Source: Terriglobia bacterium
GTDB lineage: Bacteria > Acidobacteriota > Terriglobia > Bryobacterales > Bryobacteraceae
DNA length: 64,000 nucleotides
Direction of reading: 5' to 3'
Assembly (NCBI GenBank): GCA_020073145.1
Contig: JAIQFS010000002.1
Span: 124,001 to 188,000, forward strand
Made by a program: the position numbers and the translations under genes. Within the stretch, counting starts at the first letter, position 1. Every line of letters begins with the position of its first letter. The notes under the pieces were generated by a model, which did not search any database, was not told the origin of the DNA, and worked only from the letters and a program-made list of their open reading frames with translations. This document shows positions 24,067 through 36,358 of the stretch, one piece after another.

Positions 24067-25509
24067 GTGCGTTACCTGGACTGCGCCGATTCACCGACAC
24101 CGACCCCTATGCCCCTGCAAAGAGTTCTATGGCTGGTTGAGAACAATGACCCGTGGACCGATGCCAGTCATGAAAGCTTCCCCCCCGGCCTCGGCATTGC
24201 TCAGGTAACCGACCTCACTGAGGCTACCGCTGCTTTCCGCTCCGCCAGAGCCGATTGCATGCTGATCTCCAACGGCGCTCCCGAACCCGGCCGCGAGGCC
24301 CTGCTCGATCTCTTCCTTGGACTGGACCCCCAAATCCCGGTCATCTTTTGGGATCGCGATCTTTCCACCCGGCAAGCCATCGATCTGGTTCGCGAAGGCG
24401 CTTTCACCTGCCACGGCCCGCGCGATCACTGGCCCGAAGTCCTCGAATCGATCTCGCAGGCCTGTCAGGAAAAACAGCGCCGCCAGCAGACCGGACGCGG
24501 CGGGGAGAGTGAGGATTGGCGTCGTAAGCTGGTGGGCGAGAGCCCCGCCATGGAAGATGTCGCCAACACCATCCGCTTGGTCGGACCGTTCCGATGCACC
24601 GTCCTCATTACCGGTGAAACCGGCACGGGTAAGGAAATGGCCGCCCGCGCCCTACACGACGCCAGCCCGCGAGCCGCGTTGCCCATGGTGGCCGTGAACT
24701 GCAGTGCCGTTCCCGAGAGCCTCCTCGAGGCGGAATTGTTCGGTCACGTCAAGGGCGCGTTCACCGGCGCCACCGGCCACCGCGTCGGCCGTTTTGAGCA
24801 GGCTCACAAAAGCACCATCTTTTTGGACGAAATCAGCGACATGCCGCTCGAACTCCAGGCCAAGCTGTTGCGCGTCCTGCAGGAACGCGAATTCCAGAGG
24901 TTGGGCAGCTCCGAGACGATTCACGTGGACGTGCGCGTCATCGCGGCCACCAACGTCAACCTGCTCGACAAGGTCCGCCAGGGGAAATTCCGCGAGGATC
25001 TCTACTATCGTCTCAACGTGGTTCCTCTCGAGATGCCTCCGCTCCGCAAGCGGCCCGATGACATTCCACTGCTGGTGGAGCACTTCATCTCCAAGTTCTG
25101 CCGCTCGGAGGAGATTCCCCAAAAGAAGGTCACTCCCCGAACCATCGAACGCCTCTGCTCCATGCCATGGCCGGGCAACGTGCGCCAACTGGAGAACGCC
25201 ATCGAAAAGGCTATCGCCCTGAGCGGCTACCGCGATACCCTCTATCCAGTCGATTTCGGGCTGGCCGAGTCTCACCGCCTGTTGGCCTCCGAACCCGCCA
25301 CCGCACCCGTCTTATTTACGGGCCGCGTCGATTTCGCCGCCGCCGTCAGCCAATTCGAGAAATCGATTCTACAGCAAGCCCTCGTCAAGACCGGCGGCAA
25401 CAAGACCGCCGCCGCCGAACTGCTCGGCCTCAAGCGCACCACCCTCATCATGAAACTGCGCGGCCTGGGCGACCCCAGCCTCGCCTCACCGTCGCAGGCC
25501 GTGTCGTAG
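24067..25509 (+). CDS. FleQ/NtrC-type sigma-54-dependent flagellar activator
   Basis: A 480-residue regulator. Residues 15-130 form a receiver-like domain in which the usual phosphoacceptor region is degenerate (WLVENNDPW in place of an acidic pair). The AAA+ domain has Walker A GETGTGKE, the sigma-54 contact GAFTGA, Walker B IFLDEISD, and R-fingers. A Fis-type helix-turn-helix (GGNKTAAAELLGLKRTTLIM) ends the protein. The GTG at 24067 has GGAG close by; ATG 24109 would give a shorter start. It is divergent from flgM and probably activates the sigma-54 promoters of the flagellar genes. Confidence 0.92.
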   Translation: MRYLDCADSPTPTPMPLQRVLWLVENNDPWTDASHESFPPGLGIAQVTDLTEATAAFRSARADCMLISNGAPEPGREALLDLFLGLDPQIPVIFWDRDLSTRQAIDLVREGAFTCHGPRDHWPEVLESISQACQEKQRRQQTGRGGESEDWRRKLVGESPAMEDVANTIRLVGPFRCTVLITGETGTGKEMAARALHDASPRAALPMVAVNCSAVPESLLEAELFGHVKGAFTGATGHRVGRFEQAHKSTIFLDEISDMPLELQAKLLRVLQEREFQRLGSSETIHVDVRVIAATNVNLLDKVRQGKFREDLYYRLNVVPLEMPPLRKRPDDIPLLVEHFISKFCRSEEIPQKKVTPRTIERLCSMPWPGNVRQLENAIEKAIALSGYRDTLYPVDFGLAESHRLLASEPATAPVLFTGRVDFAAAVSQFEKSILQQALVKTGGNKTAAAELLGLKRTTLIMKLRGLGDPSLASPSQAVS

Positions 25510-25858
25510 GGCTCCTCTTCGGTAGGGGCCGATTCGTTCGGTCACCCCGTTTTGCGCGAACTGAATGAGCCACTTACGCTCCGAGACTCTCCGCCCTCCG
25601 TTACGCTGGTAAGAGAGGTTCCACCCATCTCGGATTAGCCCGTCGTGTTCGGCAATGGGATTGGCTTCGTTTCGCATCAGACTCCCCACGGCCCGCCGCG
25701 CCCTGTGAGTTGGCTTCGTTTCGCCAATCGGACCTTCCTCCCTCATGCCCGGCTTTCGCGTCGCTCCGCTGGCGGGCCGTGACGGTAATTCAGACAGGAG
25801 TGTCTGATATCCCAACACGCTGCGGGGCGCTGAGCTCGCATCTCCTTTCTTTCCTGCA
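25510..25858. other. Non-coding region with short interspersed repeats
   Basis: About 350 bases with no convincing gene. TTGGCTTCGTTTCG occurs twice (25661-25674 and 25710-25723), and the second copy continues into GCCAA, so that TTGGC can pair with GCCAA across an eight-base loop. The long minus-strand frame here translates the same repeat and looks artefactual. Such short intergenic repeats are frequent in large acidobacterial genomes. Confidence 0.45.
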
Positions 25859-25874
25859 TGGCCTCTCCCGTGCA
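25859..25874 (+). promoter_or_regulatory. Sigma-54 promoter of the Qrc-like operon
   Basis: TGGCCTCTCCCGTGCA has GG and GC ten bases apart and is close to the sigma-54 consensus. With C25873 at -12, transcription would start near 25885, three bases before the AAAGGAG ribosome-binding site (25888-25894) of the first gene at 25904. The geometry is convincing. Confidence 0.68.
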
Positions 25875-25903: not shown

Positions 25904-26176
25904 GTGAATGACCCATCTACTTACTGGCTGACAATGACCAACCTCGCGTTGGGCGTCGTGGTCCTGATCTGTTGCGGGGCCGTGGCGTTCGGCGTCTTGC
26001 AGGAACTGATCGCGCGCAAGAGGAAGCGCGCGGCGGAATCGACGCTCGACCGCGAAGTGGCCGACCTGGCCGCCACCTATACCGGCGGACATGCCTTCCA
26101 CCTGCCCGGCCTCGGCGTCACCATGGCCGATGGCGGCGAAGAGCTCAACAAGAAAGAGGAGCGCAAACCCCAATGA
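25904..26176 (+). CDS. Small membrane protein of the Qrc-like operon
   Basis: A 90-residue protein starting at GTG 25904, with AAAGGAG at good spacing. One transmembrane helix (about 9-35, MTNLALGVVVLICCGAVAFG) is followed by a basic patch and a soluble C-terminal tail. It could anchor or organise the complex encoded downstream, like the small membrane subunits of many respiratory complexes. The next gene begins inside its stop codon (ATGA), so the two are translated together. No named family is recognised. Confidence 0.8.
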   Translation: MNDPSTYWLTMTNLALGVVVLICCGAVAFGVLQELIARKRKRAAESTLDREVADLAATYTGGHAFHLPGLGVTMADGGEELNKKEERKPQ

Positions 26177-27045
26177 CCTGCCCGTTCCTCAAGGAAGCCG
26201 AGGTCGCGTATTGCCAGTCAGCGACAGTGCGGACGCTCATCCCGCTGGCCCAGGCGACGGCGGCCCTGGAAAAATGCGCTTCCCCGGAACATGTCTCTTG
26301 TTCGATGTACCAGGCCCAGGCGGAGCAAAGCGCGGAGATCGCAGCCTGTCCTCATCTGCGGCAGTCTCTGATGCAATACTGCGCCGCCTCGCCTGTGACC
26401 AAGTTCATTCCCTACAGTGAATCGCTGACATCCCGCTGCAACGAGAACTTCCGCTATTGCGAGGCCTATCTGAAGATGGCCCATCCGCCCACGGGTCCCG
26501 GATCCGGTGACGAACTGCCGGCCCCCGATTGGCTGCTCTACTCCGCCAACCACATGTGGCTCGACCTGGCCGGTGACAACATCTGCCACGCCGGCATCGA
26601 TTCCTTCCTGAGCCGCGTTCTGGGCAAGATCGATGCCGTGACTTATGTCCACCAGAAGGGGCGGCAACGGCCCGCGGCCGTGCTGACCGTCCACGGAATC
26701 GATGTGGACGTGGTGTTTCCCAATCCGTTCCGCCTCACCGCCTGCAACCTGAACCTGCGCGCCAATCCTTCGCGAATCGCCACCGAACCCTACACCAGCG
26801 GCTGGCTCTTTGAAGGAGTTCCCGGGCCCGAGACCACAGCCCACCTGCGGCAAGGCGCGGAGGCCCGGGAGTGGATGTCTGAAGAAGCGCGCCGCATGAA
26901 CCAGTACCTGCAGGAATTTGCGAGCGTGTCCGCCGATGGCGGCATGTTCTCGCGAGATCTGGCCGCGCTCTTGCCGCGCGCCAAGATGCTGGCCTTATTT
27001 CATGAATTCTTCTCGCCGTTTGCGAGTCAGGAGAGCGAACTGTGA
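26173..27045 (+). CDS. GcvH-like protein with duplicated four-cysteine motif
   Basis: A 290-residue protein. The first 100 residues hold two copies of a motif CP-x-L...YC...C...C: C3/C14/C35/C43 and C59/C70/C89/C96, with the first spacing (x10) identical. This could bind Fe-S or zinc, but I know of no named family. Residues 118-215 resemble the glycine-cleavage H-protein fold (DWLLYSANHMWLDLAGDN, then GIDSFLSRVLGKIDAV). The usual lipoyl-lysine position appears to hold no lysine. It ends in a helical tail, and its stop overlaps the GTG of the next gene. A Qrc-associated role is inferred from position. Confidence 0.8.
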   Translation: MTCPFLKEAEVAYCQSATVRTLIPLAQATAALEKCASPEHVSCSMYQAQAEQSAEIAACPHLRQSLMQYCAASPVTKFIPYSESLTSRCNENFRYCEAYLKMAHPPTGPGSGDELPAPDWLLYSANHMWLDLAGDNICHAGIDSFLSRVLGKIDAVTYVHQKGRQRPAAVLTVHGIDVDVVFPNPFRLTACNLNLRANPSRIATEPYTSGWLFEGVPGPETTAHLRQGAEAREWMSEEARRMNQYLQEFASVSADGGMFSRDLAALLPRAKMLALFHEFFSPFASQESEL

Positions 27046-27593
27046 AACATCGAAGCACCTACGTGTTTCTGTCGGGAGTCCTGATCGCGTTGGGCGCGGG
27101 CTGGGCTGGATTTCCCTACGCCATCTACGAAAGCCGGCCGCAACCGGTCGACTTCAGCCATAAGGTCCACACCGGGGCCGGCGGCATGAAGTGCGACGAC
27201 TGCCACCAACTGCGCCCCGACGGCACTTTCGCCGGCATCCCGCGCCTCGAAAAGTGCGCGGGATGTCATGCCGCCGCCATGGGCTCGACCGCGGAGGAAA
27301 AGCAGTTCATCGATGGATACGTCACCCCCAAGCGGGAGGTCGCGTGGTCCGTGTATGCGCGCCAGCCCGGCAACGTCTACTTCCCGCATGGCGCGCACGT
27401 GAAGCAGGCCGGTCTATCGTGCGAACGCTGCCATGGCAAGCACGGCCAGACCGAAACCCTGCGGCCGTACCAGGAAGACCGCATCAGCGGCTATTCGCGC
27501 GATATATGGCGAGGCCTGACGATGGGCGATTGCGTGGCCTGCCACGAGCAGCATGGGATCGGCCAGCAAGGTTGTCTGGACTGTCACAAATAG
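27042..27593 (+). CDS. Pentaheme cytochrome c (QrcA/ActA-like)
   Basis: A 183-residue protein with an N-terminal signal anchor (residues 7-27) and five CxxCH haem-binding motifs at 51-55, 72-76, 127-131, 164-168 and 178-182. QrcA of sulfate reducers carries six haems and ActA of alternative complex III five. This protein would pass electrons between the periplasmic side of the complex and soluble cytochromes. It starts at GTG 27042, overlapping the previous stop by four bases, and is followed ten bases later by the molybdopterin-type subunit. Confidence 0.93.
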   Translation: MKHRSTYVFLSGVLIALGAGWAGFPYAIYESRPQPVDFSHKVHTGAGGMKCDDCHQLRPDGTFAGIPRLEKCAGCHAAAMGSTAEEKQFIDGYVTPKREVAWSVYARQPGNVYFPHGAHVKQAGLSCERCHGKHGQTETLRPYQEDRISGYSRDIWRGLTMGDCVACHEQHGIGQQGCLDCHK

Positions 27594-27603
27594 AGGGGGC
27601 TGT

Positions 27604-29193
27604 ATGCGCAAGACCACTCGCAGAGACATCTTCAAGTTCGCGGCCGGCTCCGCCGCGGGCCTGGTGTTCACCCCGGCGCCCTGGCGGCTGATCACCGATA
27701 CGGCCTTGTGGTCGGAGAATTGGCCAGGCATTCCGCGGCCGGCCCGCGGCCAGACTCGCACCCGCTTCACCCATTGCGCCTTGTGCTCCGCGGGATGCGC
27801 GGTGCGCGCGCGTTGTGTGAACGATCAACCGGTGTCCCTGTCCGGATTGGCTGGCAGCCCGCTGTGCGCGTTTGGACTGGCGGGCCATCAACTGCCGTAT
27901 CACACCGGCCGCGTCAAAACCGGAGCCATCGAAGAAGCACTCGCGGCAATCGCCCAACGGCGGAGTCACGATGCAGTGGCAGTGCTCGACCTGCGGCCCG
28001 GCCGTACCGCGTCCTGGACCTACCGCCGCGCCATGGCCGCGCTGCCGCGTGGGTTTTATCTGGCCGCGCAGAGCGCCATTCCCGCGGTCAATCTGGATCA
28101 GGTCCGGACCCTTCTCAGTTTCGGCGCACCGGTGCTCGATGGCTGGGGTACCCCCTCCACGGTCCTCGCCGCCCGAAGCCATTTCCGGCTGATCCAGGCC
28201 GAGCCGCTCGAATCGCACACCGCCATGCTCGCGGATCTCTGGCTGCCTCTCCGCAAGGGCTCCGAGCAAGCCCTGGCGCTGGGGATCGCTCACGTGCTGA
28301 TGCAGGAACAAAACGCGGGCGCCTCGTTCCCCGCCGAGGCCACCGCCTATTCGCCCGCGAGAACAGCGCAGCTCACCGGTTTGCCCGAAGCGCAGATTGT
28401 GTCGGTCGCGCGCGAACTGGCGCCCGGCGGCGCCCTCGTGCTGGCTTCCCAGGAATGGCCCGAGATCCTGCAGTTGAACCGGCTATTGGGTAGCGTCGCG
28501 CATACCATCGTGGGACGGCGCGAGACGCCGGTCCCGGCGAGCTGGAAAAAGGCCGCGCCGGTGACCGCCATCGAGGCTGTGCCGGACGGGTCGATCGGCG
28601 TGTTGCTCATCGACGAATCCGTTTGCGACGGATACTTGCCGTGGAACGCGATTGAACCCAAGCTCGCCCCGGCACCCCTGGTGGTGACGTTCGCTTCCTC
28701 GCGCGCCGGCTACGGCCGCTACGCCCGGTTCACCCTGCCCACCGCGGTGTACCCCGAGATGACCGACGACATCCCTCCGGCGCTGGACTCGGCGGCCGCC
28801 ACGTTCCGCCTCGCGACCCCGCTGGTGGCTGCGCCCGCGGGTGCCGTCGAGCCCGCCCGCTTCATCGCGCAGCTTGCAGGACTGCCTCCCGCGGACGCCC
28901 TTCGCGAGCGCACCGACGCCATCCAGTCCTCGGGACGTGGGGTGTTACGAACGTATGCCGACGGAAAATCGATTCCGGTGAAAGGCGTGAAGCCCGATGA
29001 CTTCTGGAAGGTGCTAAACGAAGGCGGCTGCTGGGTGGACGCGCCGGACCCAGTCGAGCCACCGGCGTCGGCCTGCCAGTCCTCCAGCGCTGCGGTGGTG
29101 GCGATGACGTGGGAGATGCGTCTCGCGCGCGGCCCGATGTCACCGCTGCTGTCGAAGCTATATGAGGAATCCAATCTGAGGGTGCGCTTATGA
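27604..29193 (+). CDS. Molybdopterin-family subunit (QrcB-like), exported by Tat
   Basis: A 529-residue protein with a twin-arginine signal (MRKTTRRDIFKFAAGSAAGL). The [4Fe-4S] Cys set C58, C61, C65 and C88 matches the N-terminal cluster of the DMSO-reductase family. At 529 residues it is well below the 700-1000 of catalytic members and lacks an obvious C-terminal dinucleotide-binding domain, so it is probably a structural relative without molybdenum, as in QrcB and ActB. Start fixed at ATG 27604 with a purine-rich site just before it. Confidence 0.88.
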   Translation: MRKTTRRDIFKFAAGSAAGLVFTPAPWRLITDTALWSENWPGIPRPARGQTRTRFTHCALCSAGCAVRARCVNDQPVSLSGLAGSPLCAFGLAGHQLPYHTGRVKTGAIEEALAAIAQRRSHDAVAVLDLRPGRTASWTYRRAMAALPRGFYLAAQSAIPAVNLDQVRTLLSFGAPVLDGWGTPSTVLAARSHFRLIQAEPLESHTAMLADLWLPLRKGSEQALALGIAHVLMQEQNAGASFPAEATAYSPARTAQLTGLPEAQIVSVARELAPGGALVLASQEWPEILQLNRLLGSVAHTIVGRRETPVPASWKKAAPVTAIEAVPDGSIGVLLIDESVCDGYLPWNAIEPKLAPAPLVVTFASSRAGYGRYARFTLPTAVYPEMTDDIPPALDSAAATFRLATPLVAAPAGAVEPARFIAQLAGLPPADALRERTDAIQSSGRGVLRTYADGKSIPVKGVKPDDFWKVLNEGGCWVDAPDPVEPPASACQSSSAAVVAMTWEMRLARGPMSPLLSKLYEESNLRVRL

Positions 29194-29939
29194 CTGGCAA
29201 ACGGTACGGCATGTCGATCGACATCGACCGGTGCACCGGTTGCGGCGCGTGCATGGTGGCCTGCGCCGTCGAGAACAACGTTCCCCCCGCGCCCGAGGGA
29301 GCCACCGACCGCAAAGGCATTACCTGGATGCGCGTCTTTCCAGTCGACAACGGCAGAGACGGTCCGGACCGGAAGTCGGTGTTCGTGCCGATGCTTTGCC
29401 AGCAATGCGGCCAGGATGCGCCCTGCGTCAGTGTCTGCCCGCAGCAAGCCGTGCAGGTGGATCCCGCCACCGGAATCGTGGGCCAGATGCCGGAGCGCTG
29501 CCTCGGCTGCCGCTATTGTATGGCGGCGTGCCCGTACCACGCGCGCTACTTCAACTGGTGGGACCCGGCGTGGCCGGCCGGCATGGAGAAGACGCTGAAT
29601 CCGAACGTCGCGCCCCGCATGCGCGGCGTGGTCGAAAAATGCAATTTCTGCCACGGCCGCTGGCACGCCGCCAAAGAACGCGCCGTGGGGCGCGGCGCTC
29701 GCGAGATCGATCCCGCCGACTACGTGCCCGCTTGCGTGGAGGCCTGCCCTACGGCAGCCATCCGGTTCGGCGATTTGAACGACCCCCGCAGCCCGGTGGC
29801 CCAGGCGGCGCAGCAGAGCGGCAGTTTCCGCCTCCTCGAGAAGCTGGGCACCGAACCCAAAATCTACTACCACTCCGCCAGGGAATGGGTCCGCGAAATC
29901 GGCAGAGCGCCCGCGGGAAAGGAGCAGGTCCATGGATAG
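29190..29939 (+). CDS. Four-cluster ferredoxin subunit (QrcC/PsrB-like)
   Basis: A 249-residue Fe-S subunit. Four cysteine groups are visible: CTGCGACMVAC, CQQCGQDAPCVSVC, CLGCRYCMAAC and the split set CNFC...CVEAC, which is the 16-Cys pattern of the DmsB/PsrB/QrcC family. It conducts electrons between the membrane quinone site and the molybdopterin-type subunit. No signal peptide is present; it is probably exported as a partner of the Tat protein. The ATG overlaps the previous stop. Confidence 0.94.
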   Translation: MTGKRYGMSIDIDRCTGCGACMVACAVENNVPPAPEGATDRKGITWMRVFPVDNGRDGPDRKSVFVPMLCQQCGQDAPCVSVCPQQAVQVDPATGIVGQMPERCLGCRYCMAACPYHARYFNWWDPAWPAGMEKTLNPNVAPRMRGVVEKCNFCHGRWHAAKERAVGRGAREIDPADYVPACVEACPTAAIRFGDLNDPRSPVAQAAQQSGSFRLLEKLGTEPKIYYHSAREWVREIGRAPAGKEQVHG

Positions 29940-31215
29940 GCAACTCATCGCACGCGGTGTCCGGCGCTGCTCGACGCCTCAATTCCTGCTGTGGATTCTG
30001 CCGTGGGCGGCGCTGTTCGCGTTCGGGCTGTACTGTGCCGGCCTTTGCCTGGTCAAGGGCTTGAACCAGACCAACATGGATAACCGGTTCGCCTTCGGCC
30101 TCTGGATCTTTGTCGACCTGACCATCATCGCGCTGGGCGCGGGCGCCTTCTTCACCGGGTTTCTGCTGTACATCCTGAAGCTGAAAGACCTCGACGCCGT
30201 CATCAACAGCGCCGTGGTCATCGGTTTCGTTTGCTACAGTGGCGCGGTCGCGGCCTTGTTGGTGGATGTCGGCCAGCCACTGCGCGCCTGGTTCACCTTC
30301 TGGTATCCGAACGTTCACTCCATGCTGACCGAGGTGACGTTCTGCATCACTTGTTACCTCGCCGTGCTCCTGATCGAATACCTGCCCATCGTCTTGCGGA
30401 ACCGAAAGCTCCGGGAGGTGCCTGGGTTCCTGGTCTTCGAATTCGAATTGCACAAGCTGATTTATGTGCTGGCCGGAGTGGGCACGTTTCTCTCGTTCTT
30501 CCATCAAGGGTCCCTCGGCGGTCTGTTCGGCGTGCTGCGCGGCCATCCGTTTGCGTTTCGCGAGGGCTTGGCGGTGTGGCCCTCCACGTTCTTTCTGTTC
30601 ATCCTCTCCGCCGCCGCGGTCGGCCCCAGCTTCATCCTGTTCACCACCTGGCTGATCTCGAAGCTCTCTGGCAAACGCCTGGTGCGGCCGCAGGTGTTGC
30701 AACTGCTCGGCCGCATTTCCGGCCTCCTGCTGGGCGTGTACGTTCTGGCCAAGACGGTCGACACCCTCATCTGGATCAACCGCACCTCGCCCGGCGCCGG
30801 CTTCCCGGCACAGGAATATTTCGCGTGGCAGCCCTTTGGCACCTGGATTCTGTTCGCCGAGATCGTCGTCTTCGGCCTGGCCCCCGCGCTGATTCTGCTC
30901 ACCCCGCGGCTGCGGCTCCGCACCAACTGGCTGGTTTCGGCCGCCGTGCTGGCTTGCCTGGGCGTGGCGCTCAACCGCTTTGTCATGACCCTGCAGACCC
31001 TGGCGCTGCCCACGCTGAGCTTCGACCGCTACCTTTCCTATTGGCCCAGTTGGCAGGAGACCGGCACGTTCCTGGCGGTGGTCGCCTTCGGCGTGCTGGT
31101 GTACTCGTTCTCGTTCCGCTACCTGCTGCTGTTTCCGCAGGAGCGCGAGTTCCGGCAGGAGCCAGCTGCCCAAGTATCCGAAACCGCGGTCATGGATCCG
31201 GTTGGGAGGTCTTAA
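29932..31215 (+). CDS. NrfD/PsrC-type membrane quinone subunit (QrcD-like)
   Basis: A 427-residue integral membrane protein with about ten helices, of the NrfD family: the first after a short charged N-terminus (FLLWILPWAALFAFGLYCAG), then conserved features such as NRFAFGLWIFVDL. NrfD subunits hold the quinone site facing the periplasm. AAAGGAG precedes the ATG, which overlaps the ferredoxin end by eight bases. A single NrfD is present, as in Qrc and unlike alternative complex III, which has two. Confidence 0.94.
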   Translation: MDRQLIARGVRRCSTPQFLLWILPWAALFAFGLYCAGLCLVKGLNQTNMDNRFAFGLWIFVDLTIIALGAGAFFTGFLLYILKLKDLDAVINSAVVIGFVCYSGAVAALLVDVGQPLRAWFTFWYPNVHSMLTEVTFCITCYLAVLLIEYLPIVLRNRKLREVPGFLVFEFELHKLIYVLAGVGTFLSFFHQGSLGGLFGVLRGHPFAFREGLAVWPSTFFLFILSAAAVGPSFILFTTWLISKLSGKRLVRPQVLQLLGRISGLLLGVYVLAKTVDTLIWINRTSPGAGFPAQEYFAWQPFGTWILFAEIVVFGLAPALILLTPRLRLRTNWLVSAAVLACLGVALNRFVMTLQTLALPTLSFDRYLSYWPSWQETGTFLAVVAFGVLVYSFSFRYLLLFPQEREFRQEPAAQVSETAVMDPVGRS

Positions 31216-31216
31216 T

Positions 31217-32047
31217 ATGTTCCCCTGGAATTACGGCTTTCACTGGAGCACCGGGAACGTCCTGTTCCTGGGCGCGTTTTACACCGTCTTGGTGGTGGTG
31301 GCGACCACCGTGGCGTCCGCGATCTTGCGCGCGCGCCGCGCCGTGGCCGCCCAGCAGACGGACGCGATTCGCTGGCGCTCCGACTTTCATGACCTGCCGC
31401 CGCGAGACCGCGTCTGCCGCCATGTATTGACGGGAGAATTCCAGGTCCGGGAATGCCCCAACGCCTTCGACTGTCGGCAGTGCGAGACGCACGCCCGACT
31501 GGTGGCTCTCCACCCGCCGGAAGCGCCGCCGGAATCGGGAGAGGAACTCCTGGGCATGTCCTTTCCGCTAGACCGTTTCTACCATCGCGGCCACACCTGG
31601 GCCCGGCTGGGGCCGGACGGCGCCGTCACCATCGGGCTCGACGAGCTTGGACGCCGCGTGCTGGGAGTGCCGGATGCCGTGGATCTGCCGGCCCCGGGTA
31701 CACGTCTGCGGGTCAACGGACCGGCCTGGCACATCCATAAGCGCAACCGAGACGTGCGTGTGCTCTCTCCGGCGGACGGTGAGGTGGTCGAAGCCACCGG
31801 CGGTATCGGGGGCGATGGGTACCTGCGCGTCAAGCCGGTCGGCCGCGGATTCGATTTCCGGAACCTGCTCGCCCCGTGCGAGGTCAAGCCCTGGCTGCTG
31901 CGGGAAGTGGAGCGACTGCAAGGGGCGCTCTCCGCCGAAGGCGTCCCGACGTTAGCCGACGGCGGCGTCCTGCTGCCCGATCTATCCACTGCGTACCCGC
32001 AAGCCGACTGGGACGCGGCCTGCGACGCCATGTTCCTGCAGGCGTGA
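31217..32047 (+). CDS. Membrane-anchored GcvH-like protein with CX12CX5CX2C motif
   Basis: A 276-residue protein. I chose ATG 31217, eight bases after GGGAGG. A transmembrane helix (about 15-37) is followed by the cysteine motif C67-x12-C80-x5-C86-x2-C89, and by a glycine-cleavage H-protein-like domain from about 122 (FYHRGHTWARLGPDG). The position aligned with the lipoyl lysine may be K175 (HIHKRN), but the hairpin is two residues longer than in GcvH. It is the last gene of the Qrc-like operon; similar GcvH-type proteins are known in other bacteria, but their role is unclear. Confidence 0.82.
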   Translation: MFPWNYGFHWSTGNVLFLGAFYTVLVVVATTVASAILRARRAVAAQQTDAIRWRSDFHDLPPRDRVCRHVLTGEFQVRECPNAFDCRQCETHARLVALHPPEAPPESGEELLGMSFPLDRFYHRGHTWARLGPDGAVTIGLDELGRRVLGVPDAVDLPAPGTRLRVNGPAWHIHKRNRDVRVLSPADGEVVEATGGIGGDGYLRVKPVGRGFDFRNLLAPCEVKPWLLREVERLQGALSAEGVPTLADGGVLLPDLSTAYPQADWDAACDAMFLQA

Positions 32048-32157
32048 CCGGATAGCTTCGGATTCGTCCCCAGGCTCACACCGTGAAGGGGCCCGTGGGC
32101 GAGCCCGAACGCCGGTCTATAATCGGTGCTTTGGAGTCGCACCCAGGAGGAGGCACC

Positions 32158-32778
32158 GTGAAGTTCCGAAGCTCGGCTTTTCTCGTATCCGCGTCATTGG
32201 CGTTCCTGAGCAGCGCGTGGGCGCAGGATCGCATGCCGCCCATCCCCGCGGACAAGATGTCCGAAGCGCAAAAGAAGGCGGTGGCGGACGTGCAGTCCGG
32301 CCCATTCCAGGTGACCGGGCCGCTTATTCCCTTGCTGCGCGATCCGAAACTCGCGGGCGAGGTCTATGCCCTTGCGACCTACTTCCGCAGCGACAACCCG
32401 CTCGGCACCCGATTGACGGAGCTCGCGATTCTGGTGGTGGCGCGCGAGTGGACGCAGCAGTTCGAGTGGAATTCCCACTACCCGCGCGCGATCCAAGCCG
32501 GATTGAAGCCGGAAACCGTCACCGCCATCGCTGAGGGCCGCCGCCCCATCGGCCTGCCCGAGGACGAGGAGATCGTCTACGACTTCTGCACGGAATTGCG
32601 CCAGAACAAAGGGGTGAGCGATGCCACCTATGCGCGCGCTCTGAAGAAGCTCGGCGAGGCCGGCGTGGTGGATCTCACCGTGCTGAACGGCTACTACGTC
32701 ACGCTCGCGATGGTTCTCAATGTATCGCGCGCGCCCGTGACCAGCCCGCAGGCCCCGCCGCTCCGCGTGCTGCCGTAA
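32158..32778 (+). CDS. Secreted carboxymuconolactone-decarboxylase-like protein
   Basis: A 206-residue protein starting at GTG 32158 with AGGAGGAGG upstream. It has a signal peptide (about 1-20, cleaved at AWAQ) and a carboxymuconolactone decarboxylase-type helical domain (ELAILVVAREWTQQFEWNSH). No CxxC pair, as in AhpD, is visible, so peroxidase activity is unlikely. Periplasmic members are numerous in Acidobacteria and their substrates are unknown. A long gap of 110 bases separates it from the GcvH-like gene, so it may be transcribed on its own. Confidence 0.85.
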   Translation: MKFRSSAFLVSASLAFLSSAWAQDRMPPIPADKMSEAQKKAVADVQSGPFQVTGPLIPLLRDPKLAGEVYALATYFRSDNPLGTRLTELAILVVAREWTQQFEWNSHYPRAIQAGLKPETVTAIAEGRRPIGLPEDEEIVYDFCTELRQNKGVSDATYARALKKLGEAGVVDLTVLNGYYVTLAMVLNVSRAPVTSPQAPPLRVLP

Positions 32779-32835: not shown

Positions 32836-34194
32836 CTACCGCGGGATTTCGTAGCGCTTGATCTTCTCGTAGAGCGTCGAGCGGTCGATGCCCAACACCG
32901 AGGCGGCTTCCTTGATGTTGCCGTGCGTGTACTGGATGGTGGCCGCGATGAGCCGCTTTTCCATTTCCTGCAGCGGCATGCCCGCCGGAACCGCCCAGCC
33001 TTTCGCCAGGGCGCCGTTCTCATGGAGAAACGCGAAATCCTCTTCAATGAGGCTGTGGCCGCGGCACGTCACCATGGCGCGCTCCACCCCGTTCTCCAGC
33101 TCCCGCACGTTACCGGGCCAGTTGTAATCCATCAGGGCCTTCATGGCGCCGTCGGAGATCTCGCCGATTTCCTTGCCCGACTCGTGCGCGAAGCGCTCCA
33201 CGAAATGCTGGGCCAGCAGCGGGATATCCTCGCGCCGCTCGCGCAGCGGCGGGATGCGGATCTCGATCACGTTCAGCCGATAAAAGAGGTCGTCACGGAA
33301 CTTGCCGTCCGCCACGGCCTGCTGCAGGTTCACGTGGGTGGCGGCAATGATCCGCGCATCCACCCGCACTTCCTCCGATCCGCCCAGCCGGTAGAACGTG
33401 CGGTCTTGCAGGACACGCAGCAGATCCACCTGCAGCTTGGGGGAAATATCGCCGATCTCGTCCAGGAATACGGTGCCGCCGTCGGCCTGCTCAAACTTGC
33501 CGAGCTTCTGCTGGTCGGCCCCGGTGAACGCGCCTTTCTCGTAGCCGAACAGTTCGGATTCCAGCAGCGTTTCGGCCAGGGCGGCGCAGGAAACCGCCAC
33601 GAATGGTTTCGAGGCGCGGTCGCCCGAATTGTGGATGGCCCGCGCGACCAACTCCTTGCCCGTGCCGCTCTCTCCCAGGATCAGGACCGTGCTGCGCAGG
33701 CTGGCCACCTCATGCGCCAGGTCCAGGATGCCGCGCATGCGCGCGCTCTTGCTGATGACATCCTGGAAGTGATATTGGCGCGTCAGCTTCTTGCGCAGGA
33801 TGGCGTTCTCGCGCTGCAGATTCTTCACTTTGATGGTGCGGCTGACCAGGAGGGAAATCTCTTCGGGGTTGCACGGCTTGACGATATACTCCAGCGCCCC
33901 TTCCTTCATGGCGGTAATGGCGGTATCGACGGTGGCGTAGGCGGTAATGATGATGATGGCGGCTTCCGGGTGCAGGCGGCGGATCTGCATCATGGTCTCG
34001 ATGCCGTCCATGCCGCCGGGCATTTTGAGATCGATGAAATAGATCGCGTAGTCTTGCCGGCTCGCCAGCTCCACGGCGGCACGTCCCGAGGCCGCGGTAT
34101 CCACCGCGTAGCCATCCTCGCGCAACCAGGCCGCGAGCGATTCGCACATCACCTCTTCGTCATCCACCACCAAAATGTGCCAATGGGTTTTCAT
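32836..34194 (-). CDS. NtrC-type sigma-54 response regulator
   Basis: A 452-residue regulator. The receiver has D11/D12, phosphoacceptor D55 and K106. The AAA+ domain has Walker A GESGTGKE (174-181), GAFTGA (221-226) and Walker B VFLDEIGD, and a Fis-type helix-turn-helix ([19 protein letters not shown]) ends it. It is the last gene of a kinase-archaemetzincin-regulator operon; its ATG overlaps the protease stop. It probably acts at sigma-54 promoters, and the element at 25859 ahead of the Qrc-like operon is a natural target. Confidence 0.95.
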
Positions 34195-34724
34195 GCGGTC
34201 ACTCCATGCTCCAATTGCCGGACACACGCCGGGCAGAAGGCGGCCTGCTTCTCGTCGATCTGCTGCACCCGGGTCGAGAGCGCCATGGCGCAGCTACGGT
34301 CGCCGCAGTGCACCAGGCCGAAGGTATGGCCGGTCTCATGCAGCACCTCCTTGCGGACGCGGTCGAGGAAGATGTCGCGGTTGGGCTCCAGCCCATAGAA
34401 CTCCTGGCGTAGCCGAGCTAGCGACACCACCGCCACGCGGCCCTGCAGTTGTGCGTGGCCGAAGACGAACGTCAGCACCGGAATAAAGAGGTCGCGCTCG
34501 GTGAGCCCCACCAGCTTGGCCGCGTCGGGCGGACAGAGCCGGGCCAGCATGTCGAGCACCGCACTCGATCCATACTGATTGCGCCGTGGGTCGAAGGCAA
34601 AATCCACTCCCGGCAGCTCGGTCTCGCGCACCGGCAGACCGAACTGGGCGGACAGGAACTCCCTCGCGGCCGTAAGCGCCTCGCGGTCGGTGTCCGCGGT
34701 GGCGCCTACGTACAGGGGCTTCAT
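34191..34724 (-). CDS. amzA: Archaemetzincin zinc protease
   Basis: A 177-residue metallopeptidase of family M54. The signature is complete: HETGH (129-133), H139 and C140, C145 and M147, then C164 and C167 forming the second zinc site typical of archaemetzincins. The length is normal. It has no signal peptide and should act in the cytoplasm. It overlaps the kinase by four bases upstream and the regulator by four bases downstream, so the three are translationally coupled. Its substrate is unknown; peptide hydrolysis itself is poorly documented for the family. Confidence 0.95.
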   Translation of the reverse strand: MKPLYVGATADTDREALTAAREFLSAQFGLPVRETELPGVDFAFDPRRNQYGSSAVLDMLARLCPPDAAKLVGLTERDLFIPVLTFVFGHAQLQGRVAVVSLARLRQEFYGLEPNRDIFLDRVRKEVLHETGHTFGLVHCGDRSCAMALSTRVQQIDEKQAAFCPACVRQLEHGVTA

Positions 34725-36358
34725 CCCAGGCGCGCCAATTCGAGCAGCGACGGCTCGGCGGGTGGTGCGGCCTGCTGCAGCGGCAGGGCAATGGTGAAAG
34801 TGGTTCCTTCGCCCACCTTGCTCTGGACTTCAATATCGCCTCCGTGGGCCTGGACGATGCCGTACGAAACCGCCAGCCCCAATCCCACTCCCTTACCCTC
34901 GGGCTTGGTCGTGAAGAACGGGTCAAAGATTTTCTCAAGGTTCTCCGGCTGGATGCCCTCGCCGTTATCGGAAACCCGCAGCACGACAGCGTCGGATCCG
35001 GTTTCGGTGGTGACCGTGACGCGGCCGCCGCCCTTGGGTTGTGCCGCTTCGGTGGCGTTCAGCACCAGGTTCAAGACCACCTGCTGGATTTGAGACTGGT
35101 CGCAGGACACCGCCGGCAGTCCTTCGCGCAGGCGCGTTTCGACCGCCACGTTACTGAGCTTCATCTTGTGCTGCACCAGCGAGAGGGTGGTGGTCACAAT
35201 CTTGTTCAGGTCGGCGGGAGCGCGATGCGGCGTCGAGCGGCGCGAAAAGGCCAGCAGGTCGGAGACGATGCGGCCGACCCGCGTGGTCTCGCTGATCACC
35301 TGGGACAAATACTTGCGGAAGTCGCCAATGCGGTCCGGTGGAATTCCGTCCTCCTTCAACATGCGCTGCAGGAGCATGCTGAGGTTCAACACGCCCGACA
35401 CCGGGTTGTTGATCTCATGCGCCACGCTGGCGGAGAGTTGGCCGAGAGACGCCAGGCGGTTGCTTTGCAGCAGCTTCTGGTGAGCCGTTTTGAGCTGCTC
35501 GGTGCGCTGTTCGACCTTGGTCTCGAGGTTCTGAGTGAACTGATTGATCTCCCCCAGGGCGGTGCGCAGGCGGTCGCGCATCACGTCGAAAGACCGCGCC
35601 AGCTCATCCAGGTCTTCGCTGCCGCTGCCCCCCATGTCGAGAGGCTTGTCGAGCTCCATCTGGCTGATGGCGTGCGTGCCTTCGATCAGCCTCTCAATCG
35701 GCCGGCCGAGGAAACGCCGGGTGAAGTAGATAATGAACAGGCTGATGAGTGCGATCTCCACGCCGGTCACTTTCAGCACGCGCAGTTTCACGGCGGCCAT
35801 CTCGGCGTCGACACTCTCCAGGCCCAGCGACAGGTCCAGCACGCCGAGCACTTTCATAGCTTTCGGATGGGCGTGGCACGCGGCCTGGCTGCACGAAGGC
35901 TCGTTATAGATCGGGGTCACCATGGCCAGCCGGCGGCGGCCGTCGTTCCCGCTAAAGACGCGGACCCGCGAGGGCAGGTCCAGCCGGTACTTCGGCGCGC
36001 CGGGCGCGTGGCACACGGCGCACGTTTCGCTGTGCAGGTCCGTGGTAGCCGTCCGGTCCTCCTGGCTGGTGGAGAACATCACCTGCCCGGCGCGGTTGAA
36101 CATGCGGATGCGGTCGATGCCTTGCTTGAGCGCGATGGTCTCCATGATCTGGTACACCGCCTCGCGATGATCATCGCGCATGGCGTGCCAGGTGGCGCTG
36201 GTGATCCCCTTGGAAAGCTGATCGGCTCCCAGAACCATCACGTTCAGAAGCTGACGTTCCTCGCTCTTCACGTTGACCAGCCCAGAGACCGCCGCCACGA
36301 TGATAACGATCACCGTGATCGAATAGATCAGCTTCCGGGCGAGACGCCTCGGCATCAC
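34721..36358 (-). CDS. Sensor histidine kinase with c-type haem motifs
   Basis: A 545-residue kinase. A transmembrane helix (about 10-28) leads to a periplasmic domain of some 160 residues with two haem-type motifs, CAVCH (113-117) and CSQAACH (156-162, the CX4CH form). A second helix (about 197-213) is followed by a HAMP domain, a coiled coil, the phosphorylated H314 in SVAHEINNP, and the ATPase domain with NLVLNATEA and GVGLGLAVSYGI. It probably senses redox state or a gaseous ligand through a covalently attached haem. The next two genes overlap it, making one operon. Confidence 0.92.
   Translation of the reverse strand: MMPRRLARKLIYSITVIVIIVAAVSGLVNVKSEERQLLNVMVLGADQLSKGITSATWHAMRDDHREAVYQIMETIALKQGIDRIRMFNRAGQVMFSTSQEDRTATTDLHSETCAVCHAPGAPKYRLDLPSRVRVFSGNDGRRRLAMVTPIYNEPSCSQAACHAHPKAMKVLGVLDLSLGLESVDAEMAAVKLRVLKVTGVEIALISLFIIYFTRRFLGRPIERLIEGTHAISQMELDKPLDMGGSGSEDLDELARSFDVMRDRLRTALGEINQFTQNLETKVEQRTEQLKTAHQKLLQSNRLASLGQLSASVAHEINNPVSGVLNLSMLLQRMLKEDGIPPDRIGDFRKYLSQVISETTRVGRIVSDLLAFSRRSTPHRAPADLNKIVTTTLSLVQHKMKLSNVAVETRLREGLPAVSCDQSQIQQVVLNLVLNATEAAQPKGGGRVTVTTETGSDAVVLRVSDNGEGIQPENLEKIFDPFFTTKPEGKGVGLGLAVSYGIVQAHGGDIEVQSKVGEGTTFTIALPLQQAAPPAEPSLLELARLG

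Follow-up and report, generated by a model that had tools for sequence, protein, structure and literature searches.

A predicted, diverged Qrc operon of an acidobacterium carries three added conserved genes, two of them for GcvH-like proteins

Alternative complex III (ACIII; ActABCDE(F)) carries two NrfD-like subunits, ActC and ActF. The molybdopterin-like and Fe-S parts of this complex are fused in ActB (PMC6303296). Qrc acts as an electrogenic cytochrome c3:menaquinone reductase. This complex, in which QrcA, QrcB and QrcC are periplasmic (PMC6303296), was presented in 2026 as having four subunits and belonging to Desulfobacterota that reduce sulfate, and its characterized operon from Desulfovibrio is qrcABCD, DVU0695-0692 (PMC13059093). 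We describe here a related locus in a stretch of 64,000 nucleotides (the window) from a Terriglobia bacterium of the Acidobacteriota (assembly GCA_020073145.1, contig JAIQFS010000002.1, positions 124,001 to 188,000), in which seven genes on the same strand fill positions 25904-32047 in the order SMP, GH1, QrcA, QrcB, QrcC, QrcD, GH2. SMP is a small membrane protein, and GH1 and GH2 are GcvH-like proteins, i.e., they resemble the glycine cleavage H-protein. A sequence-only reading of this DNA had listed a pentaheme cytochrome, unfused molybdopterin-type and ferredoxin subunits, one NrfD, two GcvH-like proteins and a small membrane protein in one operon, and each of these components was recovered where that reading had placed it (Table 1). 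Four of the six gene junctions overlap, the gap between QrcA and QrcB measures 10 bases and a single base separates the qrcD stop codon from the GH2 ATG. Since the junctions overlap or almost touch, the seven genes very likely form a single operon. We show here that the four central genes are best placed as a diverged Qrc and that the three added genes accompany it in several phyla.

All four central genes have Qrc subunits (QrcA, QrcB, QrcC and QrcD) as best NCBIfam matches, and their order matches the definition of Qrc (multiheme, molybdopterin-like, four-cluster and NrfD-type subunit). QrcD reaches 564.5 bits with the QrcD model, compared to 127 for HmcC, the next best match, and 109 for PRK10881, a Ni/Fe-hydrogenase cytochrome b subunit. 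Judged by these profile scores, the core is a diverged Qrc. The complex had initially been seen as a Qrc/ACIII hybrid, a view that these data rule out, as QrcA passes its own model, all best profiles are those of Qrc, QrcB and QrcC are separate genes (27604-29193 and 29190-29939) where ActB is a fusion, and there is one NrfD instead of two. A pentaheme cytochrome, a molybdopterin-enzyme-like protein, a ferredoxin and NrfD are common to this locus and ACIII; the pentaheme count itself is correct for QrcA, yet it is no pointer to ACIII. QrcA of D. vulgaris is hexaheme, whereas five CxxCH motifs are found here and in all QrcA sequences compared (63/63). The locus has the four subunits of QrcABCD of Desulfovibrio/Nitratidesulfovibrio vulgaris, arranged in identical order, and differs from it in having SMP, GH1 and GH2 in a seven-gene operon and in a shorter QrcB (529 amino acids versus 695 in the model). 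The open frame of QrcB varies in length, from 445 to 745 amino acids in sampled values. A Cys4 motif of QrcB, C-x2-C-x3-C-x22-C (C58, C61, C65, C88), is kept in 67-69 of 72 relatives, which contrasts with the description of QrcB as free of redox cofactors (PMC13059093).

Residues of the membrane subunit are strongly conserved as well. D62, Y102, D112, S130, Y142 and R349 of QrcD occur in 82/82 sequences and E404 in 80/82; they would correspond to D70, Y110, D120, S138, Y150, R358 and E413 of D. vulgaris, mapped by an inferred offset of 8, then 9, without an aligned D. vulgaris sequence. In D. vulgaris, variants of D70, Y110, S138 and Y150, together with Y113 of QrcC, lose electron transfer to menaquinone, whereas variants of D120, R358 and E413 retain it (PMC13059093). 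Tyrosine 113 of QrcC is probably Y109 here (78/78), and the 16 cysteines of QrcC are each found in 76-78 of 78 sequences. Most likely, the core works as Qrc does, i.e., menaquinone would be reduced with electrons from a periplasmic cytochrome and protons from the cytoplasm, possibly also in reverse. QrcD had no match among PDB sequences at E 0.01, none of 30 pattern matches in viral contigs was confirmed, and nine plasmid records are distant (24 to 28% identity).

To describe the distribution of the added genes we used the best 80 of 118 loci, those nearest to the acidobacterial QrcD and hence biased to near relatives, and the gene profiles were iterated on the same 80 loci. They comprise 43 loci from Acidobacteriota, 16 from Bacteroidota, 15 from Ignavibacteriota, two each from Eiseniibacteriota and Myxococcota, one from Kryptoniota and one unassigned. 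Three of the 80 are contigs of the five QrcD-positive Acidobacteriota genomes mentioned below. Judged by their equal lengths, L035, L036 and L038 duplicate the contigs of L083, L087 and L072, and they are left out of the cysteine, residue, presence and distance counts; two of these duplicates remain in the SMP charge count and two were in a first kinase-motif count, for which the figure without them is given. L037 is kept in the cysteine, cassette-neighbour, residue, lipoate/charge and distance counts. GH2 follows qrcD in all 76 loci whose contig reaches far enough, and of the loci that can be read at the other end, 54 of 56 have GH1 ahead of qrcA and 52 of 53 have SMP. The pairwise distances of QrcD correlate with those of GH1 (r 0.73) and GH2 (0.71) much as with those of QrcA (0.75), QrcB (0.73) and QrcC (0.61), and none of 500 permutations was as high. 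The neighbourhood of the GcvH-like genes is therefore conserved, and the proposal of a distinct lineage is supported, placed by profile scores, in that genes nearly universal in the loci seen are added to the published four-gene operon of Desulfovibrio. Among Acidobacteriota the system is rare: QrcD scores above 560 bits in 5 of 297 genomes, the window genome included, with the next match at 176, and GH1 scores above 300 bits in 6 of 294, the same five and G262. These whole-genome searches score few candidates per genome (5 for QrcD, 7 for GH1, 16 for the cysteine domain), so cases may be missed. In G262, which lacks a QrcD of Qrc level, an SMP-like gene (by eye) and GH1 lie beside a regulatory gene trio of the kind described below (L182 6756-8085), and the pair can thus exist apart from Qrc. 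One locus, L047, belongs to the metagenome-assembled genome (MAG) CO124, a sulfate-reducing acidobacterium whose qrcABCD was reported to be transcribed under anoxia; passages on this MAG do not mention the extra genes (PMC10564751). In L114 (2392-3990) and L118 (4697-6307), two GH2-like genes stand in tandem after qrcD.

Similarity of GH1 and GH2 to H-proteins is faint in single-sequence scans, where Pfam GCV_H gives 21.4 and 20.2 bits, slightly below the 22.2 cut-off. The GH1 family profile, in turn, matches solved H-proteins at E 6e-12. AlphaFold2 models were built from 44 and 49 sequences with a mean predicted local distance difference test score of 88.4 for GH1 and 92.9 for GH2, and the top structural matches of both are glycine-cleavage H-proteins (GH1: Z 15.6 over 127 residues, 1.9 A); parts of GH1 outside residues 91-262 are barely tested by this comparison, which supports no conclusion on the fold of the cysteine domain. 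As modelled, GH1 and GH2 have the H-protein fold. A chance resemblance to GcvH is ruled out by these profile and fold matches and because the gene order is conserved across several phyla. Both proteins also carry cysteine sites: eight cysteines in two repeats in GH1, each kept in 54-58 of 58 sequences, and four in GH2, kept in 79 of 79. An ADGG motif toward the C-terminus is common to SMP, GH1 and GH2 (by eye). Lysine and arginine are in excess after the transmembrane (TM) helix compared to before it in 77 of 79 GH2 and in 58 of 58 SMP loci, two of the latter being duplicate contigs. Since positive charges come after the helix, the soluble parts of GH2 and SMP are predicted to be cytoplasmic by the positive-inside rule. 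No TM helix is evident in the GH1 model, and GH1 is predicted to be cytoplasmic, too.

The barrel fold of GH1 and GH2 is that of GcvH and of LbpA, which belongs to the sulfur-oxidizing Hdr-like system (PMC6067878), and the two proteins could be imagined to act likewise, with a swinging lipoyl arm that hands over electrons or sulfur groups. Beyond the fold, however, the likeness ends: a lysine at the lipoate site is present in none of 58 GH1 and in 7 of 79 GH2 sequences (G175 takes its place in GH1 of the window), cysteine domains are added and the proteins form clades apart from true GcvH. A role as lipoate carriers is thus largely refuted and retains practically no chance, and the suggestion of electron-carrying GcvH folds falls in this sense. 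A different carrier function would be conceivable if the Cys8 and Cys4 sites bound Fe-S clusters through which the complex exchanged electrons with a donor or acceptor in the cytoplasm, and conserved cysteine sets in proteins tied to an oxidoreductase fit such a role. However, neither Pfam nor NCBIfam lists an Fe-S domain for the two proteins at E 0.1, and QrcD is described as free of cofactors, with the quinone site of its family mostly on the periplasmic side (PMC13059093), so that a redox path to the inner face is not known. We consider cysteine-bound electron carriers improbable.

GcvH-like proteins are not confined to Qrc loci. The window genome itself contains, on another contig (L039, contig C88, 6408-12754), genes for a GcvH-like protein, an FeS protein, NrfD, a kinase with c-heme motifs, a sigma-54 regulator and an archaemetzincin in a row. 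Such NrfC-NrfD cassettes of Acidobacteriota share with the Qrc locus the GcvH-like protein, the NrfCD pair and the same trio of kinase, regulator and archaemetzincin; in contrast to it, QrcA and QrcB were not identified in them and their NrfD is only distantly similar to QrcD, the copy in the window genome scoring 145.8 bits. We found no name for cassettes of this composition. Among the 19 NrfD loci ranked next after Qrc, a GcvH-like domain lies within 5 kb of NrfD in 12 (nine separate genes and three fusions to receivers) and at about 8 kb in two more, and a kinase occurs in 18; the stretch of L161 was drawn wider owing to a listed GcvH match, and L169-L189, partly picked for such matches, are outside this count. 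Five Response_reg then GCV_H fusions were recognized by Pfam beside FeS-NrfD-kinase genes (L155, L156, L164, L187 6916-8034 and L188 8358-9479), and the two that were translated have a hydrophobic N-terminus ahead of the receiver. Many further open frames of similar length are listed in this fusion family (f23), as candidates only. The GH1 cysteine-domain model matches 18 of 294 genomes. Six of these are of GH1 type, three belong to one family in which a single open frame encodes both the cysteine domain and GcvH (read in two of them), seven have small proteins with one repeat close to NrfD (viewed in six loci, placed by coordinates in G098), and in G064 and G120 the match lies close to NuoE-like genes and a fragment of a sigma-54 regulator (named by eye). 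Proteins with a single Cys4 repeat adjoin NrfCD and GcvH operons. In L189 (5583-6731) and L225 (1495-2637) one protein combines a GcvH domain with one cysteine repeat of GH1 type and two cysteine motifs of GH2 type; that of L189 adjoins kinase, archaemetzincin and regulator genes in a stretch of 13 kb in which no NrfD was found. In a phylogenetic tree, GH1 and GH2 each form one clade among NrfCD-associated GcvH-like rows, and all are split from true GcvH with 100% support in the Shimodaira-Hasegawa-like approximate likelihood ratio test (SH-aLRT). Of the four Pfam GCV_H matches in the window genome, the tree puts one with true GcvH and three elsewhere. The tree was made by a quick method, its deep branches are weak and the NrfCD-associated rows are not one clade (three changes). 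It contains the window and 13 random GH1 (of 57 others), the window and 13 random GH2 (of 78 others), 35 NrfCD-associated sequences above 200 bits and below 300 amino acids (L182 and L183 left out), and six true GcvH, taken by lysine motif, of nine loci.

Downstream of the operon in the window lie, on the opposite strand, genes for a sigma-54 response regulator, an archaemetzincin and a membrane histidine kinase (Table 1). Both heme-type motifs of this kinase recur in 25 of 31 other Qrc-adjacent kinases, duplicate contigs dropped. Upstream of SMP a sigma-54 promoter is predicted. Across the window and 47 loci, all of them with an SMP start that could be recognised, 33 of the 48 upstream regions contain a -24/-12-like site that scores at least 12 and lies no more than 150 bases from this start, compared to 29 of 960 control stretches; a looser, earlier scan gave a mean best score of 11.96 versus 10.57 in shuffles. 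A further sigma-54 regulator gene immediately upstream, at 24067-25509, was rejected as a part of the system, as no gene best matching it was found near other loci. Between the operon and the trio lies a carboxymuconolactone-decarboxylase-like gene (32083-32778; Pfam 20.9 bits, cut-off 23), and no match to it is listed in other loci.

From these data we give an even chance to the view that the locus encodes a diverged Qrc whose three added partners, SMP, GH1 and GH2, face the cytoplasm and act as regulators or redox-signalling parts. QrcABCD would connect a periplasmic cytochrome and menaquinone by electron transfer, and QrcD would admit protons from the cytoplasm as in Desulfovibrio, as the conserved residues suggest. 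GH2, held by its one-helix anchor, and GH1 together with SMP might dock on the inner face of QrcD, with the lipoate-free barrels as protein-docking domains. If the Cys4 and Cys8 sites hold metal, be it zinc or Fe-S, docking could be sensitive to the redox or metal state of the cytoplasm. The three proteins may then adjust or report Qrc activity in a circuit with the c-heme-motif sensor kinase and the sigma-54 regulator, and the latter may also switch the operon on. This control reading is drawn from the predicted inner-face position, the loss of lipoate, the cysteine sites, the frequent heme-motif kinase and the receiver fusions.

Several observations weigh against it. QrcB, QrcC and the QrcD of the window stay below the NCBIfam equivalog cut-offs (Table 1), which are naming thresholds and hold no functional criterion; because acidobacterial relatives do pass for QrcD (587.9, 583.8 and 570.8 bits in three other Acidobacteriota, with GH2 in those loci too), the low scores point to divergence and not to another identity. 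There is no Desulfobacterota qrc locus among the best 80 of 118, so that classical Qrc enters the comparison through the published account of its four-gene operon. GH1 is absent from two readable loci, L096 (Myxococcota), where SMP is absent too, and L108. Of the 46 loci whose sequence extends at least 5 kb downstream, only 21 have regulator and kinase together in the first 6 kb (the raw tally of 22 kinases and 22 regulators includes a 35-bit kinase match in L112 and, in L061, a regulator on its own), and 19 have an archaemetzincin. In five loci the trio lies upstream instead (L056, L071, L073, L084, L099; three among the 46), and Bryobacterales or Terriglobia loci L042, L046, L048, L049 and L055 show no cassette nearby. 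The cassette is thus not obligatory. In the related NrfCD loci, a literal GAFTGA motif is present in only 17 of 28 regulators. The promoter site of the window itself scores 11, tied with 25825-25839, and is therefore only suggestive for the window alone. Finally, strict linkage to the structural genes is not needed for regulators, while it is expected of structural subunits. SMP, GH1 and GH2 might accordingly belong constitutively to the inner face of the complex as subunits, or serve its maturation, with folds held by zinc and no part in signalling, the kinase cassette controlling transcription only. The near-universal linkage and order, the overlapping genes, the distances of GH1 and GH2 that track QrcD as those of true subunits would, and the dispensable cassette all suit such a role. 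It is hard to reconcile with the fusion of related GcvH-like domains to receivers, with G262, which keeps an SMP-like gene and GH1 without Qrc, and with L189, where cysteine motifs and GcvH stand beside kinase, archaemetzincin and regulator and no NrfD was found in the stretch. We regard a purely structural or assembly function as less likely than one in control or signalling.

Table 1. Predicted genes, domains and sites of the Qrc locus and the neighbouring regulatory genes (positions within the window).
Feature	Position	Strand	Evidence
Predicted sigma-54 (-24/-12) promoter, TGGC-N7-GTGC type, ends 30 bases before SMP start	25859..25873	+	same place and form in Bryobacterales orthologues
SMP, small protein, one TM helix and short tail bearing a conserved MADGG motif	25904..26176	+	52/53 readable loci
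GH1, GcvH-like, eight-cysteine N-terminal domain	26173..27045	+	AlphaFold2 model, fold match, 54/56 readable loci
GH1 cysteine repeat 1 (C3, C14, C35, C43)	26179..26301	+	each Cys in 54-56/58 sequences
GH1 cysteine repeat 2 (C59, C70, C89, C96)	26347..26460	+	each Cys in 57-58/58 sequences
GH1 H-protein-fold domain, lipoate lysine absent	26515..26898	+	G175 at lipoate site
QrcA, pentaheme cytochrome c	27042..27593	+	NF041781 205 bits, cut-off 180; five CxxCH
QrcB, molybdopterin-enzyme-like subunit, twin-arginine start (RRDIFKF), ATG 27604	27604..29193	+	NF041783 132.9 bits (E 1e-38), cut-off 440
QrcC, ferredoxin subunit, sixteen cysteines (four clusters expected)	29190..29939	+	NF041782 355.5 bits, cut-off 400
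QrcD, NrfD-type membrane subunit	29932..31215	+	NF041784 564.5 bits, cut-off 570
GH2, TM-anchored GcvH-like protein, Cys4 motif	31217..32047 (ATG 31217 or TTG 31202)	+	AlphaFold2 model; 76/76 readable loci
GH2 Cys4 motif C-x12-C-x5-C-x2-C	31415..31483	+	all four Cys in 79/79
Sigma-54 response regulator	32836..34227	-	Pfam Response_reg, Sigma54_activat, HTH_8
Archaemetzincin (Peptidase M54)	34191..34724	-	Pfam PF07998 100.2 bits; HExxHxxGxxHC present
Membrane histidine kinase, CxxCH and Cx4CH heme-type motifs in N-terminal part	34721..36358	-	Pfam HAMP, HisKA, HATPase_c

The metabolic setting of the window genome differs from that of the sulfate reducers in which Qrc was described. No DsrA over the cut-off was found (39.4 bits versus 392.85), and a link to sulfate reduction in this genome was rejected. 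Neither was a formate dehydrogenase alpha subunit found over the cut-off of the model searched (best 145.9 versus 814.2), and a single NiFe hydrogenase passes its cut-off, which looks like a Hox type as judged by eye from its neighbours, so that a link to periplasmic formate or hydrogen oxidation was rejected. The hydrogenase cluster lies on contig C61 (L195 7386-13316), where NuoF-like and glutamate-synthase-like parts share one frame of 1085 amino acids (by eye).

In the open-access literature we found nothing that joins GcvH with NrfD, cytochrome and operon, glycine cleavage with Qrc, or Qrc with Ignavibacteria and menaquinone. "GcvH-like" proteins were met there, in titles and abstracts, only in lipoate metabolism or sulfur oxidation, and matches for archaemetzincin and operon were unrelated by their titles. 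A diverged Qrc with three strongly conserved added partners occurs in several other phyla than the one for which the complex was described, in the window genome without DsrA over the cut-off, and the H-protein fold seems to be used without lipoate beside a respiratory complex. The receiver-GcvH fusions beside related modules suggest that two-component signalling controls quinone enzymes directly. More tentatively, and short of an even chance, GcvH-like and Cys4 proteins may constitute an unrecognised signalling layer for quinone complexes of the NrfCD family, in which lipoate-free barrels, some of them fused to receivers, would dock on the cytoplasmic face of NrfD and link the quinone module to a circuit of c-heme kinase and sigma-54 regulator, so as to set the activity of the module or to sense the quinone pool through it. 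The Qrc of the window would then be the most elaborate form seen here.

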